64,000 nt of DNA from Chloroflexota bacterium. GTDB taxonomy: Bacteria; Chloroflexota; Anaerolineae; Anaerolineales; Villigracilaceae. Shown in pieces: positions 1,000 to 8,568 of the stretch. Numbering within the stretch: the stretch's first letter is position 1; each line of letters starts with the position of its first letter. The DNA is taken from assembly GCA_016235425.1 (NCBI GenBank), contig JACRLC010000030.1, positions 1 to 64,000 on the forward strand. Direction: 5' to 3'. Both the position numbers and the translations under genes were made by a program. The notes below the pieces were generated by a model. The model worked only from the letters and a program-made list of their open reading frames with translations, searched no databases and was not told the DNA's origin.

Positions 1000-2676
1000 A
1001 TGGTGAAATCCCGTTCCGTTGCTCGTTCTATGGAAGCGCTCACGGAGGAAAAGCGCCTGGTGCGTCAGGCTAAATCCGGAAGCGCCGAGGCATTCGTTCA
1101 GCTTTACGATGCGTTTGTTGAACGCGTCTATCGGTACGTCTATTTTTGGGCGTCGGATGAAATGGCCGCCGAGAGCATCACCTCCCGGGTGTTCATCCAG
1201 GCCTGGAATCGCATCCATCGTTACCGGGGATTTGTCTCACCGTTTGCGGTGTGGCTTTATAAGATTGCAAAAGATCAAGTGGCTGAGCATTACCGCATTC
1301 ACCCAAAAATCGTGATGCCCGACGATGGTTTTGTTCTGGCCGTCGAGGGCAGTGTGTTGGTGGAGGCCCGGGATGTATTTGGCGTGCGGGCCATGCGCGA
1401 TGCGATGCAATTTTTAACCGAAGACCAGCAACAGGTGCTGATATTGAAGTTTATTGCCGGTATGTCCGTCAGAAATATCGCCCGCATAATGATAAAAAGC
1501 GAAGACGCAATCCGCGGCCTGGAAATGGACGCTTTGCAGGCGCTGGCGAAGATACAAGCTGGAAAAGCAGAAAACAAGACAGACTTTCAACAGATACTCG
1601 AAGAGTGTTTGATTAGGCTCTCGAACGGCACTGCCAGTGTGGATGAATGCCTGGCACGTTACCCCGAATATGCCGCGCAGTTAAGGCCGTTTTTGCGAAC
1701 CGTGTTCTTTCTGAATCTTGGACGCAATGTAATGCCTACACCTGCATTCAAGGCACATGCTCATGTCAATTTGACTCAATACTTGCGGTTTCACCAGCGT
1801 CCGCCGCGAAAGGTACCGCTGTTCCGGCAGGCGGCATTGACCCTTTCCGTGATGGCCGCGGTTTTTCTGGTTTTCAGTACGGCACAGGCCCAGTCTGCCC
1901 TGCCGGGTGATAACTTTTATGCCTGGAAGCGCACCAGCGAGGAGGTCTGGCGCGTGTTATCGCCTGACCCGGTTGCCACCGATATTGCCCTGGCCAATCG
2001 CCGCATAGATGAATGGGTTGCAGTCGCCAACGACCCGGTGCTTAGCGCCAGCGCGATGGACGGTTATTTCGATGTCTTGTCCAGGCTGAAGACTACGGCG
2101 GATCCGCAGGCTCTTGGACTCATCATGCCTGTGCTCCTGTCTCACCAGCGAATATTGAATGATGCTGGTCTATCTGCCTCCGAGTTTAACGATCACCTGA
2201 ATGTGGAAATAAGTTCATTTCCCATTGCGGCGGTTACTCAGGCCGCTCCCACCAGCGCTCCCGAAATTATTCCCACCCCTCCTCATGAAGTCAAGCCGCC
2301 TACCCACGTTCCCACCGAAATCGTGCCTACGGTCGTTCCCACCAAAATCGTGCCCACAGTTGCTCCCACTATCGTCCCCACTTCCATCCCAACCACCATT
2401 CCTACTGCCATCCCGACGCTTGTCCCCACCTCCATTCCGACCGCCATCCCCACCACCGTCCCGACGCTTGTCCCCACCTCCATTCCGACCGCCATCCCCA
2501 CCACCGTCCCGACCACTGTTCCTACTTCCATCCCGACTACTGTCCCGACGATTGCGCCTACCATCGTCCCGACCACTATCCCTACCGACGAGCCTACCGC
2601 CGTACCTACCGTGATCGCGCCCACATCTATTCCCACTGATGTCGTTGAGCCTTCACCTACATCCGGGGTTCCTTAA
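1000..2676 (+). CDS. ECF-type sigma factor fused to a DUF5667-like membrane domain with Pro/Thr-rich tail
   Basis: This is a 558-residue protein. Residues 15-105 are a sigma-70 region 2 (LYDAFVERVYRYVYFW; VFIQAWNRIHRYRG). Residues 135-185 are region 4 (EDQQQVLILKFIAGMSVRNI). Residues 193-265 match the helical N-terminus of DUF5667-type proteins (CLARYPEYAAQLRPFL; PTPAFKAHA). Residues 277-297 form one transmembrane segment, followed by the SALPGD motif shared with the separate protein at 3395. Residues 416-558 are Pro/Thr repeats. The sigma part should be cytoplasmic and the rest outside, giving a membrane-tethered sigma factor. The start at 1000 has no clear ribosome-binding site; ATG 1030 is an alternative. 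The neighbouring locus encodes the same two parts as two genes, so the fusion is probably genuine. Confidence 0.85.
   Translation: MVKSRSVARSMEALTEEKRLVRQAKSGSAEAFVQLYDAFVERVYRYVYFWASDEMAAESITSRVFIQAWNRIHRYRGFVSPFAVWLYKIAKDQVAEHYRIHPKIVMPDDGFVLAVEGSVLVEARDVFGVRAMRDAMQFLTEDQQQVLILKFIAGMSVRNIARIMIKSEDAIRGLEMDALQALAKIQAGKAENKTDFQQILEECLIRLSNGTASVDECLARYPEYAAQLRPFLRTVFFLNLGRNVMPTPAFKAHAHVNLTQYLRFHQRPPRKVPLFRQAALTLSVMAAVFLVFSTAQAQSALPGDNFYAWKRTSEEVWRVLSPDPVATDIALANRRIDEWVAVANDPVLSASAMDGYFDVLSRLKTTADPQALGLIMPVLLSHQRILNDAGLSASEFNDHLNVEISSFPIAAVTQAAPTSAPEIIPTPPHEVKPPTHVPTEIVPTVVPTKIVPTVAPTIVPTSIPTTIPTAIPTLVPTSIPTAIPTTVPTLVPTSIPTAIPTTVPTTVPTSIPTTVPTIAPTIVPTTIPTDEPTAVPTVIAPTSIPTDVVEPSPTSGVP
2412..2507 (+). 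repeat. Two perfect 48-bp tandem repeats in the Pro/Thr tail
   Basis: The 48-bp unit beginning CCCGACGCTTGTCCCCACCT occurs at 2412-2459 and again, without change, at 2460-2507. It encodes a 16-residue Pro/Thr unit. Exact identity suggests a recent slippage duplication, so tail length is likely to vary between strains. Confidence 0.8.
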
Positions 2677-2742
2677 GCGTAAATAATGTTTGGCCGCATT
2701 GTCGAATGGCGGGGAGTTGAATTCGAAGGGTTTTCAAACTGT

Positions 2743-2771
2743 GACTCTCCCGCGGCGCGGGAGAGTCTTTT
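2743..2771 (+). terminator. Rho-independent terminator
   Basis: GACTCTCCCGC and GCGGGAGAGTC form an 11-bp stem with a GGC loop, followed by TTTT. It separates the fused sigma gene from the next sigma gene, so the two loci are probably transcribed independently. Confidence 0.75.
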
Positions 2772-2816
2772 CACATAACATTTTAATGTTTTTTATCGTT
2801 AAACAAGGTGAATTGA

Positions 2817-3386
2817 GTGGACTCCAATTCGACAAATCATTCCAAACAGCTTCTGCCAGGCGAGCGGCAGTTGGTTACGCAGGCCAAAGCCGGAGATTCA
2901 GAAGCTTTTGGAACCTTATATGATGCCTACGTCGAGCGCATTTATCGTTTTGTCTTTTTTCGCGTCGGAGACGAGCAGACGGCGGAAGACATCACCGCAC
3001 AGGTCTTTCTGCGAGCCTGGGAAAAACTTGGGCGGTATCGTATTGGAAGCACACCGTTCCTGGCGTGGCTGTATACGATTGCGCGCAACGCGGTGATCAA
3101 CCATTACCGTACGCACAAGGAAAACGTCGCTCTGGAAGATGTCACCTTCTCTCAACCTGACCATGCTGAAGCCTCGGATTATAAAATCGATCTCGAAGGC
3201 GAAGTGGAATCCTTGAGCGCCGCGATGAGGACCCTGACCGATGACCAGCAAAGAATTTTGCTGTTGAAGTTTATGGAAGGATTGTCCACTCATCAAATCG
3301 CCCAAAACCTGGGCAAAAGTGAAGGAGCCATTCGGGCGCTTCAGATGAGAGCTTTGCAGGCGCTTGCAAAGCGGCTGGAAGAGTGA
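2817..3386 (+). CDS. RNA polymerase sigma factor, ECF-like sigma-70 family
   Basis: This 189-residue protein has sigma region 2 at about 25-95 (LYDAYVERIYRFVFFRVG; VFLRAWEKLGRYR) and region 4 at about 135-187 (DDQQRILLLKFMEGLSTHQI; SEGAIRALQMRALQALAKR). The start is GTG, preceded by AAGGTG. It is closely similar to the sigma part of the gene at 1000, so the two are paralogues. Its end lies at the start of the DUF5667-like gene, and the two are probably co-translated. In this family the membrane partner is thought to control sigma activity, but no anti-sigma zinc motif is visible, so that role is inferred from gene order. Confidence 0.88.
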   Translation: MDSNSTNHSKQLLPGERQLVTQAKAGDSEAFGTLYDAYVERIYRFVFFRVGDEQTAEDITAQVFLRAWEKLGRYRIGSTPFLAWLYTIARNAVINHYRTHKENVALEDVTFSQPDHAEASDYKIDLEGEVESLSAAMRTLTDDQQRILLLKFMEGLSTHQIAQNLGKSEGAIRALQMRALQALAKRLEE

Positions 3387-3394
3387 AGGAAAAT

Positions 3395-4123
3395 ATGAAC
3401 GAGTTTGACTTTATCCTCGATGAATATGTCGAGCAGGTGACCAGCGGCGCATCCACCCTGGACAAATGCCTGGCGCGTCACCCCGGGCAGGCCGCGCAAC
3501 TCAAGCCGCTTCTGCAGGCGGCGCTGCGCCTGGAACGCGGCCGTGCGGTGGCGCCGTCTCCGGCTTTCAAGGCGCGGGCGCGGGCCCAACTGACCGAGCA
3601 CATGAAGGCTCATCCGCGTCACAAGCATGGGAAGTTCTCGCTGTGGAGGATTGCGATCGGCATGGCCGCAATATTCCTGGCGTTTCTCATGACCGGCACG
3701 ACCTTTGCCCAGAGCGCGCTCCCCGGCGATAGGCTGTATGATTGGAAATTGAACAGCGAAGACATATGGAGGGCGATTTCGCTGGACCCCCTGGGAACCG
3801 ACCTCGACTTTTCCAATCGACGCGTCCTTGAAATAGTGGCAGTATCGAGCGACGAGGATCGCCGGGTCCGGGCTTTGGAGGAATATAAGATATTGCTGAC
3901 CAAGTTCGAGGCCGAGCGGGACACGATGAAGCGGACGAGAATTTCTTCCGTGCTCAAGTCCCAGCAGGAATCGCTCAAACAAGCCGGTCTGGCGGTCCCC
4001 GAACTGGATCATTATTTTCTTTCCGAAGACGAAATGGAGGGCGGCACAGTGCCGCTTCAAGCAACCGCGGAAATGACATCGGAGAGAGTCCGCCGGTCCT
4101 ACCCCGGAGTTGCCGCCCGTTAA
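3395..4123 (+). CDS. DUF5667-like membrane protein, partner of the upstream sigma factor
   Basis: The product has about 242 residues. The N-terminal 75 residues are helical and charged (CLARHPGQAAQLKPLLQ; PSPAFKARARAQL). One transmembrane helix lies near residues 86-107, followed by the SALPGD motif and an extracytoplasmic helical domain (YDWKLNSEDIWRAISLDPLG). The ATG at 3395 is preferred because AAGGAA precedes it at good spacing; a GTG at 3383 would overlap the sigma stop as GTGA. It aligns throughout with residues 193-410 of the fused protein at 1000 but lacks the Pro/Thr tail. It is the probable membrane regulator of the sigma factor encoded just upstream; this is inferred from synteny and the fused paralogue. 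Confidence 0.82.
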   Translation: MNEFDFILDEYVEQVTSGASTLDKCLARHPGQAAQLKPLLQAALRLERGRAVAPSPAFKARARAQLTEHMKAHPRHKHGKFSLWRIAIGMAAIFLAFLMTGTTFAQSALPGDRLYDWKLNSEDIWRAISLDPLGTDLDFSNRRVLEIVAVSSDEDRRVRALEEYKILLTKFEAERDTMKRTRISSVLKSQQESLKQAGLAVPELDHYFLSEDEMEGGTVPLQATAEMTSERVRRSYPGVAAR

Positions 4124-4267: not shown

Positions 4268-6181
4268 ATGTCCACTACCGAAGAGATCAAATCCAAGATT
4301 GACATTGTCGACCTCGTTTCCGAGGCTGGCGTAAAATTGCGCCACGCGGGCAGAAACTATACAGGCTTTTGCCCATTTCACGATAATAAACATACCCCGG
4401 CTTTTGTCGTCTGGCCTGAGACGGGGACCTGGCGGTGCTTTGGTCAATGCAACGAAGGCGGCGACATCTTCAAGTTCGTGATGAAACGCGAAGGCGTTGA
4501 CTTCAAGGAAGCCCTGCAAAAACTCGCTTTGCGCGCCGGCGTGGAATTAAAGGAATACCAGCGCGAGAAGCCGGAGACCAGGGAAGCGTACGATCATCTC
4601 CGCAAACTGCTCGAAGATGCGATCATCTTTTATCGAAGCCATCTTTTCAACAACAAGGATATTCTGGCTTACCTCCGCGAAAAACGCGGACTGACCGACG
4701 CAACCATCGAGACCTTTGGCCTGGGCTACGCTCCGAACGGCTGGGACAACGCCCTCAAACATTTCACCCAGCGCGGCTACTCTGAACAGGACTTGATCGA
4801 CGCGGGCCTCCTCACCGTCCGCGAAGAGGATGCGACACGTATTTACGACAAATTCCGTCACCGCATCATGATCCCCATCCGCGACGAGCAGGGACGCATG
4901 TCCGGCTTCGGCGCGCGCATCGTGGACCCGAACGATATTCCCAAGTTTTTGAATTCACCGGAAACGCCGATCTTCTCGAAAGGCCGTCTGCTTTATGGGT
5001 TGGACCGCGCCCGCAAACCGATCCGCGCCGCGGACCAGGCGGTGATCGTGGAAGGGTATCTGGATGTCATTGCCCTGCATCAGGCTGGCTACGAAAACGT
5101 TGTCTCGCCGATGGGTACGGCGCTGACCGAGGACCAGTTACGCCTGCTCAAAAAATTTACGCGGCGCATTGTCCTTGCGCTCGACCCGGACACGGCAGGC
5201 CAAAAAGCCGTGCTACGCGGACTGGACGCGGCGCGTGCGGCAATGGATCGCGAAGGGGAATTTAATTTCGATGCGCGCGGCCTTCTTCGCAATGAAGCGC
5301 GCCTGCAAGCGGATTTGCGCGTGGCTTCGATGCCCGACGACCTCGACCCGGATGAGATCGTGGCGCGCGATAAAAGCGAATGGAAGCGGCTCATCGAGAA
5401 TGCCAAACCTGTCGTCACGCATGTGATGGATACGCTCGCGGCGGGGCAGAACCTGAACGACCCGAAGGTGAAGAACCAGATTGCGTCGCAGGTGGTGCCG
5501 TTGATCGAGGATTTGCCGAACGCGCTCGAACGCGATACCTACCGTCAGCAGTTGGCGCGAATGCTGAGGGTGGATGAACGCGCATTAATCGGTACGCAGG
5601 TTCAAGGTCCGAGGGTGAGGCGGGCGGGGCCCCGAACAACGGGAAAAGGCCGGGATGGCGCGTCGCCTGTTGTGGCGGTGGTCAGCCCAACGTTGAAAGT
5701 CGAAGCCTATTGCCTGGGTATTTTGTATCGCAGCCCCGAACTGCTGTATCGTTTGGATCGAAAACTGCAGGAGTTCGGTTTGAACGCTCTTGCAATCGAC
5801 GATTTCGAGTATACTGACCATCAGTTGTTGTTTCGCACGATCCGTTCGTCGGTGGAGCAGGATGAGAAGGATCACCATCATTACGTGGCGGCCCACCTGC
5901 CGGAATCTTTGGAAGGTCTTTCAAAGGAGCTGTTGGACCAAACGGAAAAGCTCGATCCTTTGGATGAACGTTTGCTGGAGGAACTGCTGGCAAGGTTTAT
6001 AGACTTGCGCCGTGTGGTGGCGCAGGCCAATGTAGGCCAGTTGCGGTTTTTGCAGGAAGAGGAGCAGCAGCAAGGAGGCGTCAATTTGAAACAATACCAG
6101 GAACAGGCAGTCCAATTTACGAGGTTATTGCAGAGTCTGGACCAGGCAAAGAGAAAGCTGTCGTTGAAGAGACAGGTGTAA
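4268..6181 (+). CDS. dnaG: DNA primase DnaG
   Basis: This 637-residue protein makes RNA primers for DNA replication. Residues 1-95 are a CHC2-type zinc-binding domain with C35, H38, C57 and C61 (CPFHD; CFGQC). The catalytic TOPRIM region follows, with the conserved EGYLDVIAL near residue 261 and the acidic motif D306-P-D308-TAG. The C-terminal 200 residues are less conserved and would contact the helicase. Length is normal for the family. It precedes rpoD, as in many bacteria (the macromolecular-synthesis gene order), with a 56-nt gap. The start ATG is fixed by the conserved N-terminus and by the promoter just upstream. Confidence 0.97.
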   Translation: MSTTEEIKSKIDIVDLVSEAGVKLRHAGRNYTGFCPFHDNKHTPAFVVWPETGTWRCFGQCNEGGDIFKFVMKREGVDFKEALQKLALRAGVELKEYQREKPETREAYDHLRKLLEDAIIFYRSHLFNNKDILAYLREKRGLTDATIETFGLGYAPNGWDNALKHFTQRGYSEQDLIDAGLLTVREEDATRIYDKFRHRIMIPIRDEQGRMSGFGARIVDPNDIPKFLNSPETPIFSKGRLLYGLDRARKPIRAADQAVIVEGYLDVIALHQAGYENVVSPMGTALTEDQLRLLKKFTRRIVLALDPDTAGQKAVLRGLDAARAAMDREGEFNFDARGLLRNEARLQADLRVASMPDDLDPDEIVARDKSEWKRLIENAKPVVTHVMDTLAAGQNLNDPKVKNQIASQVVPLIEDLPNALERDTYRQQLARMLRVDERALIGTQVQGPRVRRAGPRTTGKGRDGASPVVAVVSPTLKVEAYCLGILYRSPELLYRLDRKLQEFGLNALAIDDFEYTDHQLLFRTIRSSVEQDEKDHHHYVAAHLPESLEGLSKELLDQTEKLDPLDERLLEELLARFIDLRRVVAQANVGQLRFLQEEEQQQGGVNLKQYQEQAVQFTRLLQSLDQAKRKLSLKRQV

Positions 6182-6237: not shown

Positions 6238-7869
6238 ATGCCGGCTAAAACCAAGCAGAAGAGCAAACCTAAGATCAAACCGAAGCAGAAACCGAGACCG
6301 CCGCGTGTGCCGCATAAAGCTGAACCGATTGCGGAGCCGCCATTTTCGGTGAACGGCGTGGTGGAAGCGCTGGCGGAGGAAAAAACGCACGCAATTGATT
6401 TTGCCGCGGAAGATCTCGGCGACCCCGATGAGGCCCTGCTGGCGCAGCAGGAAGAGGATATCGCCGATGACCTGGCGTTTCCCCTGCGGAGCCATGAATT
6501 TGCCGCGGAACTGGCTGAAGACCCGGTACGGTTGTACCTGCGCGAAATCGGCCAGGTGAAACTGCTTGATTCCGATAGTGAGTTCCGCCTCGCCACGCTG
6601 ATCGAAGCCGATCGTCTTGTTACCACCCTTCGCCGCCTTCCAAAACGAAAAGGCCGCACAATGGCTTGTGCGGTCTATCATTCCCTGCTCGCGGAGATGA
6701 TTACTTCGTGGGAACGCCTCGTGGAGGATGCAGGCCGCCTCGATCACGCGCTCCCGGATCTCGCCCTCGTGCTGGCCGAGGCCCAGTCATTGCATGGGGG
6801 CTGGGAGTTTGATTCGCCGTCCTATCTGCGCGCTTATTTGGATAACGGCCATTGGGGAGTGGACCACCTTTGGGATAATCTTGCCCGACATGCCTACGGC
6901 GTTTTTCTAAGCCTTTATCTGCTTCCGTTAAATTATGCCGAGTGGCTGCTGAAACATGTCCAGGCACACAACGAACTGCCCGCCCAAAGGACGATGTTCC
7001 ACAACCTGTGCGCGGACGCGGACCTGCTCAAAGAAATGGACGCAGCCCACGCCCGCGCCGTGGATGCGAACCAGGCCATCATCCGCGCCAACCTGCGATT
7101 GGTTGTTTCGGTTGCCAAGCGCTACCTGGGCCGCGGCATTTCCTTCCTTGACCTGATCCAGGAGGGCAACATGGGACTCTTGCGCGCGGTGGGAAAGTTC
7201 GATCCGCGCCGCGGTTTCAAGTTCAGCACTTATGCCACGTGGTGGATCAGGCAGTCCATCAACCGCTCGATTGCCGAACAGGCGCGCACGATCCGCATTC
7301 CCGTGCACTTGTTTGAATCGATCACGCGTTTGTTGCGTATTCAACGCACTTTGGTCCAGGAATTGGGGCGCGAGCCGAACAACGGGGAACTGGCTTTGGA
7401 AATCGGTTATTTGCCCGCCTCGGATGTGCAGGCCATCCTGCGTGCGCATTCCGAGGGCAGGCCGCTTTCACCTGAGTTGCAGCGCCGCTGGGAAACCGCC
7501 ACCCAAAAAGTGGACCGCGTGCTCCGCTCGGCGGAGGAACCGGTCTCGCTGGAGGGGCCGGTGGGCGACGAGGATTCCAGCTCGCTGGGTGATTTCATCG
7601 AGGATGAGGATGCCCCTTCGCCGATGGATGCCGCCGCGCGTGAGATGCTGCGCGAGCAGGTGCAGCGCGCGCTGGAGGCATTATCTGAAAGGGAGCGGCA
7701 GGTGCTTGAATTGCGCTTTGGGCTGGTGGACGGAAAGGATCACACACTCGAAGAGGTGAGCCGCTTCTTCAATGTGACGCGCGAGCGCATCCGGCAAATC
7801 GAAGCGAAGGCGCTGCGGAAACTGCGTCACCCCACACGGAGCAGGCAGTTGAGGGATTACCTGGGGTAG
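6238..7869 (+). CDS. rpoD: Primary RNA polymerase sigma factor (sigma-70/SigA)
   Basis: This 543-residue protein directs RNA polymerase to housekeeping promoters. A Lys/Pro-rich start is followed by region 1.2 ([16 protein letters not shown]) near residue 95 and a non-conserved spacer of about 160 residues. Region 2 is near 280-350 ([33 protein letters not shown]), then comes region 3, and region 4 is at 480-543 ([36 protein letters not shown]). These are the hallmarks of a group 1 sigma factor. The TATAAT/TTGACA-like promoters found across the window fit its expected specificity. It lies just after dnaG and may be co-transcribed with it. Confidence 0.96.
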
Positions 7870-7949: not shown

Positions 7950-8213
7950 TCAAACCTGTTCAAAACGCTGGACCGGGACCACGAAGAGTGTGGCGCGTTT
8001 TTCATTGGACGCCAGCGGAGGGAGGCTGTTGCGGACGATTTGGATGGCTTCGTCCACCTGTTCGTCTTCCACGCCGAGCAGCATGGTCACGACGCCGCTC
8101 CGCATAAAACCGCCTGTGGAGGCAACCCGCGTGACACGGAAATTGCTTGCCGTGAATGCCTGCGTAAGTTTGTCGGCGTCGTGGTCTTTGATGATGACGA
8201 TGATCATTTTCAT
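7950..8213 (-). CDS. Cyclic-di-AMP receptor, DarA/PII-like, short form
   Basis: This 87-residue protein has the ferredoxin-like PII fold pattern of cyclic-di-AMP receptor proteins (KMIIVIIKDHDADKL; ASTGGFMRSGVVTMLLGVED; ATLFVVPVQRFEQV). The TGGF(M/L)RSG stretch matches the nucleotide-binding segment known in DarA. The loop before the last strand is about 20 residues shorter than in classic DarA. It lies 16 nt after a longer paralogue and has its own GAGGAG ribosome-binding site. The pair ends an operon with an ion permease and a CBS protein, suggesting control of ion transport by cyclic-di-AMP. Function beyond ligand binding is inferred. Confidence 0.85.
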   Translation of the reverse strand: MKMIIVIIKDHDADKLTQAFTASNFRVTRVASTGGFMRSGVVTMLLGVEDEQVDEAIQIVRNSLPPLASNEKRATLFVVPVQRFEQV

Positions 8214-8229: not shown

Positions 8230-8568
8230 TCAAATCTGTTCAAACCTTTCAACGGGTAAAACAAACACTGTGGCGCCGCCGACCGTCACTGGCACGGGTG
8301 CGGGCATGGGCATGGGTGAGCCTTCGAGTGGAAGGGTCATGTATTCAATCCGCTGGCGGCACGCGGTTTGGAGGGCATCCAACGCGGCCTGTTCTTTGGT
8401 TTCAGGCAGGCCGATCAACAGCGTGGCATTGCGGCGTCCGAGAAATCCGCCTGCGCTGGAGAGAAAGGTAACAGATGCGCCGATCTCATGCAATGCGCGC
8501 GTGGCAATGTCCAAATCCTGTTCCTGGACGACAGCCATCAGCAAAAGGTGGACGTGAGAATTATTCAT
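8230..8568 (-). CDS. Cyclic-di-AMP receptor, DarA/PII-like, long form
   Basis: This 112-residue protein closely follows the DarA pattern: an N-terminal strand (HVHLLLMAVVQEQDLD), a glycine motif (SAGGFLGRRNATLLIG), a Pro/Met-rich loop (residues 83-95) and a conserved end (VGGATVFVLPVERFEQI). Members bind cyclic-di-AMP as trimers. The glycine motif has GRRN where DarA has RSGN, so affinity or specificity could differ. A GAGGAG ribosome-binding site precedes the ATG. It sits 18 nt downstream of the ArsB/NhaD-type permease and upstream of the shorter paralogue. Confidence 0.87.
   Translation of the reverse strand: MNNSHVHLLLMAVVQEQDLDIATRALHEIGASVTFLSSAGGFLGRRNATLLIGLPETKEQAALDALQTACRQRIEYMTLPLEGSPMPMPAPVPVTVGGATVFVLPVERFEQI

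Follow-up and report, generated by a model that had tools for sequence, protein, structure and literature searches.

What does a sigma factor do when it is joined in one chain to its own membrane partner, next to a copy of the same pair that is still encoded by two genes? The question is raised by the start of a 64,000-nucleotide stretch of DNA, here called the window (contig JACRLC010000030.1 of assembly GCA_016235425.1, from a Chloroflexota bacterium of the Villigracilaceae, Anaerolineales). The fused gene, P0001, is a single open reading frame (ORF) at 1000-2676 (+) that encodes 558 amino acids: a degenerate extracytoplasmic function (ECF) sigma factor, an anti-sigma-like domain, one transmembrane helix, an outside domain and a Pro/Thr-rich tail. 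Two adjacent genes follow at 2817-4123, a canonical BldN-like ECF sigma factor, P0002 (2817-3386, +; 189 amino acids), and its anti-sigma-like membrane partner of the RsbN/DUF5667 type (3395-4123, +). P0001 is 47% identical to the split sigma factor over residues 2-185 and 39% identical to the split partner over residues 184-400, so the likeness is not due to chance. A first-pass annotation, made from the letters alone, had drawn these reading frames correctly and interpreted the fused product as an anchored sigma factor that would need proteolysis or another release step. We tentatively favour, with a confidence that stops just short of even, a different interpretation: the protein would derive from a duplicated BldN/RsbN-like pair and would now sit in the membrane as a mimic of a sigma factor, its sigma domain docked on the anti-sigma domain of the same chain.

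Loss of conserved contact residues in the sigma domain

The family set comprised 152 genomes, and P0001 has matches with E-values of 1e-36 or lower in 26 of them. An open frame that fuses sigma factor and partner occurs in eight of the 152 (G000, the window genome, and G001, G393, G459, G508, G513, G517 and G538), and close but unfused pairs occur in three genomes (G501, G503 and G512). Together these 11 members form one clade (support 100/100) that is nested among canonical split pairs in a joint tree. The nesting of fused among split sequences agrees with the direction of change proposed earlier, from split to fused. We compared the 11 clade sequences with 47 canonical sigma sequences, which include one fused protein from another family (G231). 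The canonical panel drew on 38 extra ORFs; 10 had no match to a sigma model, two were fused (L094, L097), seven were duplicates, and L006, although it keeps both residues discussed below, scored low and was excluded manually. This left 18 that were used.

Two positions separate the groups completely. Asp58 in region 2.2 and Arg178 in the recognition helix (P0002 numbering) are each present in 47/47 canonical sequences and in 0/11 of the clade. P0002 itself keeps both (nucleotides 2988-2990 and 3348-3350), whereas P0001 has Ser at residue 59 (1174-1176) and Asp at residue 177 (1528-1530). Across the clade, Asp58 is replaced by Ser, Val or Gly, and Arg178 by Asp, Asn, His, Cys, Tyr or Val; because the replacements vary, the sites seem released from constraint and not switched to a new residue. 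We take Asp58 to be among the residues of region 2.2 that contact the beta' coiled coil. For SigH, an excerpt of PMC6411747 describes extensive electrostatic contacts of region 2 to the beta' coiled coil via conserved residues. Arg178 aligns with SigW R175 and SigE R176, which contact a G base of the -35 element (excerpt of PMC6713349). Other positions are affected in part: a Gln of region 2.2 that occurs in all 21 canonical sequences of the family is Arg or Lys in eight clade sequences and kept in three, and the clade keeps Ala171 in 3/11 and Arg49 in 4/11.

The clade retains other features of a sigma domain. All 11 members keep nine mostly hydrophobic positions (A23, A30, F31, A56, F64, A67, L85, A89 and L150), and across the 24 positions conserved at 90% the clade keeps 14-19 and the canonical sequences 20-24. 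Positions in the anti-sigma and outside domains are also kept, and the clade has further, nearly fixed positions of its own. From these sequence comparisons we infer that the fused protein has lost the ability to initiate transcription. That it waits as a sigma factor for release by proteolysis is unlikely, because the conserved core- and promoter-contacting residues are gone in all 11 members, the three unfused ones included.

Evolutionary rates and selection

The sigma half has evolved faster in the eroded clade. In one species pair, residue differences amount to 15% for the canonical sigma factor and 47% for the fused sigma part, and to 44% for the canonical partner and 50% for the fused partner part. 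Root-to-tip distances on a fixed tree are 1.45 (eroded) versus 0.66 (canonical) for the sigma part and 1.04 versus 0.84 for the outside domain. The ratio of eroded to canonical subtree is lowest for the outside domain (0.44), followed by the anti-sigma part (0.58) and the sigma part (1.02). In the same species pair, codon positions 1, 2 and 3 of the fused sigma part differ by 0.36, 0.26 and 0.59, and position 3 changes about twice as much as position 2 in all nine eroded pairs tested. The lower rate of change at position 2 shows that selection has not gone, and we interpret the pattern as purifying selection that is relaxed but still present.

Layout of the fused protein and structural models

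Within P0001, sigma region 2 lies at 1039-1314 (about residues 14-105) and region 4 at 1366-1563 (about residues 123-188). The junction (1564-1587, residues 189-196) leads into the anti-sigma-like cytoplasmic domain (1579-1791), with four predicted helices inside residues 194-264. The AlphaFold model places one membrane helix at residues 274-298 (1819-1893) and the best hydropathy window is 272-292, close to the 277-297 given by the first-pass annotation; net positive charge lies on the N-terminal side of the helix. Beyond it come the outside domain of DUF5667 type, which begins SALPGD..YAWKR (1894-2211, residues 299-404), and a low-complexity tail (2221-2673). The last 156 residues are 24% Pro and 24% Thr, so the outside Pro/Thr tail stands as first described. 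Pfam detects both sigma-70 regions in P0001, but weakly: region 2 at E 3.1e-7, and region 4 (r4_2) at E 8.3e-6 with a score of 25.8 bits, where the cut-off is 25.7.

The split pair gives clearer matches. P0002 matches the Pfam sigma-70 regions at E 2e-17 and 1.9e-11; its best NCBIfam family is BldN, under the curated cut-off, and its best solved-structure match is 6dxo_A, the sigma chain of the RsbN-BldN complex (E 9.7e-32). The partner starts at ATG 3395, with an alternative GTG at 3383 (246 amino acids), and its gene adjoins a BldN-like sigma gene, a feature of RsbN/DUF5667-type anti-sigmas. The top Protein Data Bank match of the partner profile is weak (6dxo_D, 91 residues, E 0.12) and is listed under the label BldN; we take this chain to be RsbN. 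The partner had been called 'DUF5667-like', a name that holds through relatives and not by direct match. DUF5667 is matched by 10 of the 24 canonical partner proteins scanned (best 1.4e-17), whereas for the split partner of the window Pfam yields no match up to E 1. P0001 likewise has no DUF5667 match by Pfam, and among the fused proteins that of G513 has a sub-threshold match (0.0094).

The AlphaFold model of residues 1-415 has a mean predicted local distance difference test score (pLDDT) of 85.8. Modelled alone, the sigma and anti-sigma domains (residues 1-268) reach a pLDDT of 87.1 and a predicted template modelling score of 0.82, which supports a defined arrangement of the sigma2, sigma4 and anti-sigma helices, and the degenerate domain is still modelled as a sigma fold. 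The best fits across both sigma domains are SigW-RsiW (Z 15.6, root-mean-square deviation (rmsd) 2.4 Å, 153 residues) and CnrH-CnrY (15.1, 2.7 Å, 154 residues), with Bartonella RpoE-NepR third (14.0, 3.1 Å, 149 residues); all three are inhibited states. ECF sigma factors bound to RNA polymerase align over their whole length only at rmsd 21-28, and the remainder align over one domain. The matches listed in the fold searches fall mainly on the sigma part and are uninformative for the anti-sigma part.

Order of events and the junction

Fused sequences fall into two groups, each next to one or two unfused eroded pairs, and a single fused clade is disfavoured in the joint tree (approximately unbiased test, p 0.020, for a group chosen after the data had been seen). 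Most simply, there were two fusions, both after erosion. One fusion followed by two fissions is possible (three steps versus two), and a tree of the partner alone, which recovers the same clade plus an orphan partner from G501 (100/99), requires three changes. The orphan (L120, 5401-6114, -) has no adjoining sigma gene and groups with the eroded pair of its own genome.

A long tail is already present in the unfused pairs of G501, G503 and G512, where it extends 98-119 residues beyond a fixed point (G501 is cut by a contig end). Tails of canonical partners in the family measure at most 77 residues, mostly 20-60, and those of more distant canonical partners 84 to more than 300. The type of tail swaps within the clade (L112-L117 and others) among Pro/Thr-rich, Gly/Asn-rich and Asp/Glu/Lys-rich sequences.

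The junction letters quoted in the first-pass annotation are correct, but loss of a stop codon, which it offered as the origin of the fusion, is disfavoured as the sole step. From the AAG of ..ALAK to the GAC of ..DF there are 30 nucleotides in the fused gene and 35 in the split pair of the window, a difference of 5. Of the 26 ingroup split pairs, 23 have sigma and partner genes out of frame with each other, among them the window pair and all three unfused eroded pairs. Over all 31 split pairs (a subset of 16 gave 15 out of frame), eight are in frame, namely the five outgroup pairs, G034, G035 and G393 (with a gap of 210 nucleotides). Given this mismatch of frames, an insertion or deletion that shifted the frame was probably required for the fusions besides loss of the stop. 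A stop codon hidden by a sequencing error, the weak point that had been named for the fused frame, is excluded by its being open in seven other genomes.

Two simple causes of erosion were considered and rejected. Tandem duplication alone does not suffice, as G454 and G455 have two tandem pairs in which Asp58 and Arg178 are kept. Nor does fusion, as G231 is fused with a canonical sigma factor and three eroded sigma factors are unfused. The G231 protein (L081, 185-2023, -) is a separate fusion from another family, combining its sigma factor with a Pfam DUF5667 domain (2e-16). It is the one fusion seen outside the family; in a set of 298 genomes, 21 had matches, and no other of these showed an unbroken fused frame.

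Genomic neighbourhood and distribution

In the window, the split pair is followed by primase dnaG (4268-6181) and the primary sigma gene rpoD (6238-7869), both on the forward strand and named by eye, as are the neighbouring genes below. Between fused gene and split pair lies a hairpin followed by UUUU (2743-2767, +; -22.4 kcal/mol, z -4.41 over a 61-nucleotide stretch), a likely terminator that is missing from the output of a simple terminator scan. This strong hairpin and its U run suggest that the fused gene and the split pair are probably separate transcription units.

Each of the eight fused genes has glyS or dnaG nearby, with glyS upstream in six loci and dnaG downstream in seven. The window contig starts at base 1 of the window, so that any glyS upstream would lie outside it. 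In G538 another ORF and then the contig end lie upstream, G459 has no dnaG within the 9 kb examined, and in G513 two other genes separate the fused gene from dnaG. Gene order is glyS, fused gene, canonical pair, dnaG in G001 and G508, and glyS, canonical pair, fused gene, dnaG in G393. Canonical pairs mostly share this neighbourhood; the eroded pair of G501 is at another location, after a gene read as ftsZ.

Canonical copies in G000, G001, G393 and G508 are 58-100% identical to P0002. No canonical copy near P0002 was found in the other seven of the 11 genomes (G513, G459, G538, G517, G503, G512 and G501), in which the best further sigma factor reaches at most 41% identity; these genomes are 83-99% complete with some contigs cut, so that no one absence is certain. 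Eight of the 11 genomes encode, at another location, one or more additional and more distant partners matching the same profile, and targets for the fused protein are possible among them. All 21 loci matched to public records are metagenome assemblies. Names assigned by sequence match are Chloroflexota bacterium JPNG_maxbin.044 (G001), Chloroflexi NC_groundwater_1617 (G513) and NC_groundwater_774 (G508), Anaerolineales ES-bin-309 (G393), GS16 (G538), WB-IL-11 (G503) and MAG-271 (G517), and Anaerolineaceae Bin_58_17 (G459).

Two further features of the surroundings were seen. Just past rpoD, the window holds two neighbouring genes of the cyclic-di-AMP receptor family (7950-8213 and 8230-8568, -; PF06153, 2.5e-22 and 4.1e-21). 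Small, apparently secreted proteins of about 145-165 residues, alike by eye, are encoded 3' of canonical pairs (L041 7921-8418, L043 6683-7126, L078 7885-8328, L122 4104-4541, L124 1914-2378 and L142 2215-2652). Neither of the two that were scanned reached the Pfam cut-off. They are perhaps a signal or target of the sigma/partner system.

Discussion

How might such a protein arise and work? A duplicate of a BldN/RsbN-like pair may have arisen in the glyS-dnaG-rpoD neighbourhood. The sequences show that its sigma half lost conserved residues at sites of core and promoter contact but kept its hydrophobic core, and that the outside tail is longer than in canonical partners of the family; the halves were joined, most simply twice and after these two changes. 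At the membrane, the sigma-like domain would rest as a mimic on the anti-sigma domain to which it is joined, and the fusion would fix the two at 1:1. An outside signal acting via the DUF5667-type domain could shift this docking and free the anti-sigma domain, or a surface of the mimic, for a partner, either a true sigma factor or another anti-sigma. The full form of this proposal is a self-capped anti-sigma receptor whose sigma domain died first, was joined to its own anti-sigma domain more than once, and switches by exposing the mimic or the anti-sigma surface. We consider it possible, with the balance of judgement somewhat against so specific a version.

Several observations weigh against a sigma mimic. 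Five of the 11 clade sequences still have Asn91 and six still have Arg98, and the separation of the groups depends on the threshold: at 97% (12 positions) the clade keeps 8-10 and the canonical minimum is 10, and at 80% (38 positions) the clade keeps 24-30 and the canonical minimum is 27, so that the groups overlap at both. Inhibited complexes do not all fit well, as SigE-RseA (93 residues), AlgU-MucA (92) and BldN-RsbN 6dxo (78) align over one domain and SigK fits at 10.1 Å; the compact packing in the model could reflect a bias of AlphaFold to compact states. Titration of a neighbouring anti-sigma, as by PhyR, was rejected as a general role because 7 of the 11 genomes yielded no close canonical copy; it is feasible in the four that have one.

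The main rival to a mimic, which we judge rather unlikely, is that the protein is a membrane anti-sigma or sensor that works by its anti-sigma, transmembrane and outside parts, the folded sigma domain being a jobless leftover. The orphan partner of G501, which does without a sigma factor, fits a dispensable sigma domain and so counts for this rival, as does the outside domain's place as the best-conserved part of the clade. However, the sigma frame is open and under purifying selection in the nine eroded pairs tested, its core positions are kept in 11/11, and the sigma part was joined to the partner, not deleted. Decay towards loss, in keeping with the fast evolution of the sigma part and the small number of family genomes that carry the gene, is distinctly improbable given intact frames of 487-572 codons in eight divergent genomes, the excess of changes at codon position 3 and the residues nearly fixed in the clade only. 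An artefact of assembly or sequencing is next to negligible in our estimation. The named matches are metagenome assemblies, with contamination of 10% in G001 and 8% in G513, but the fused frame is open in eight genomes with differing junction sequences and with glyS or dnaG nearby in each.

Comparison with known systems bears on the remaining alternative, a working, membrane-held sigma factor freed by proteolysis, perhaps with a new promoter specificity, which has in our view only a small chance of being right. One chain with sigma factor, transmembrane helix and outside anti-sigma domain or extension, as in P0001, is described for IutY (ECF243) and for ECF48, ECF52 and ECF53, and likewise for SCO4117, with a proline-rich outside region (excerpts of PMC8999054 and PMC9249621). 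IutY is cut by Prc and RseP to yield an active sigma factor, and ECF48, ECF52 and ECF53 are expected to behave alike (same excerpts). Besides this shared layout, all eight fused members are still recognised (E 0.1 or better) by models of the BldN family and of ECF sigma factors in general, and Mycobacterium tuberculosis SigL has Tyr aligned at Arg178 and is reported to be active (excerpt of PMC6372665). In contrast to IutY, however, P0001 lacks the contact residues, and the varied replacements at the two lost positions indicate no new fixed specificity there.

The closest sigma/anti-sigma type is BldN-RsbN of Streptomyces, a sigma factor with a class III membrane anti-sigma (excerpt of PMC7406223); there, two separate genes encode a working sigma factor and its partner, whereas P0001 is one chain with a degenerate sigma domain. 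The nearest concept is PhyR of alphaproteobacteria, in which a sigma fold, degenerate in the regions that bind core polymerase and promoter, is attached to a further domain (excerpt of PMC8103513). PhyR 4qic_A fits the P0001 model at Z 10.6 and 2.5 Å over 124 residues, no better than many ECF sigma factors. NepR is titrated by PhyR, which carries a receiver domain, whereas the sigma domain of P0001 shares one chain with a membrane anti-sigma-like protein; since Pfam lists no receiver domain in P0001 at E 1, it is not a PhyR. In literature searches on DUF5667, on pseudo-sigma factors and on sigma/anti-sigma systems of Anaerolineae and Chloroflexi, judged mostly by their listings, we found no description of a degenerate sigma factor joined to its own membrane anti-sigma.

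Automatic annotation would probably label P0001 an ECF sigma factor, and caution is warranted. Sigma mimicry is best known from PhyR; if a mimic docked on its own anti-sigma domain is indeed what P0001 encodes, sigma mimicry would have been reached by a second path, independent of PhyR and located at the membrane. A clade that holds eroded unfused pairs, fused genes and an orphan partner offers a stepwise view of how a transcription factor may become a regulator of regulators.

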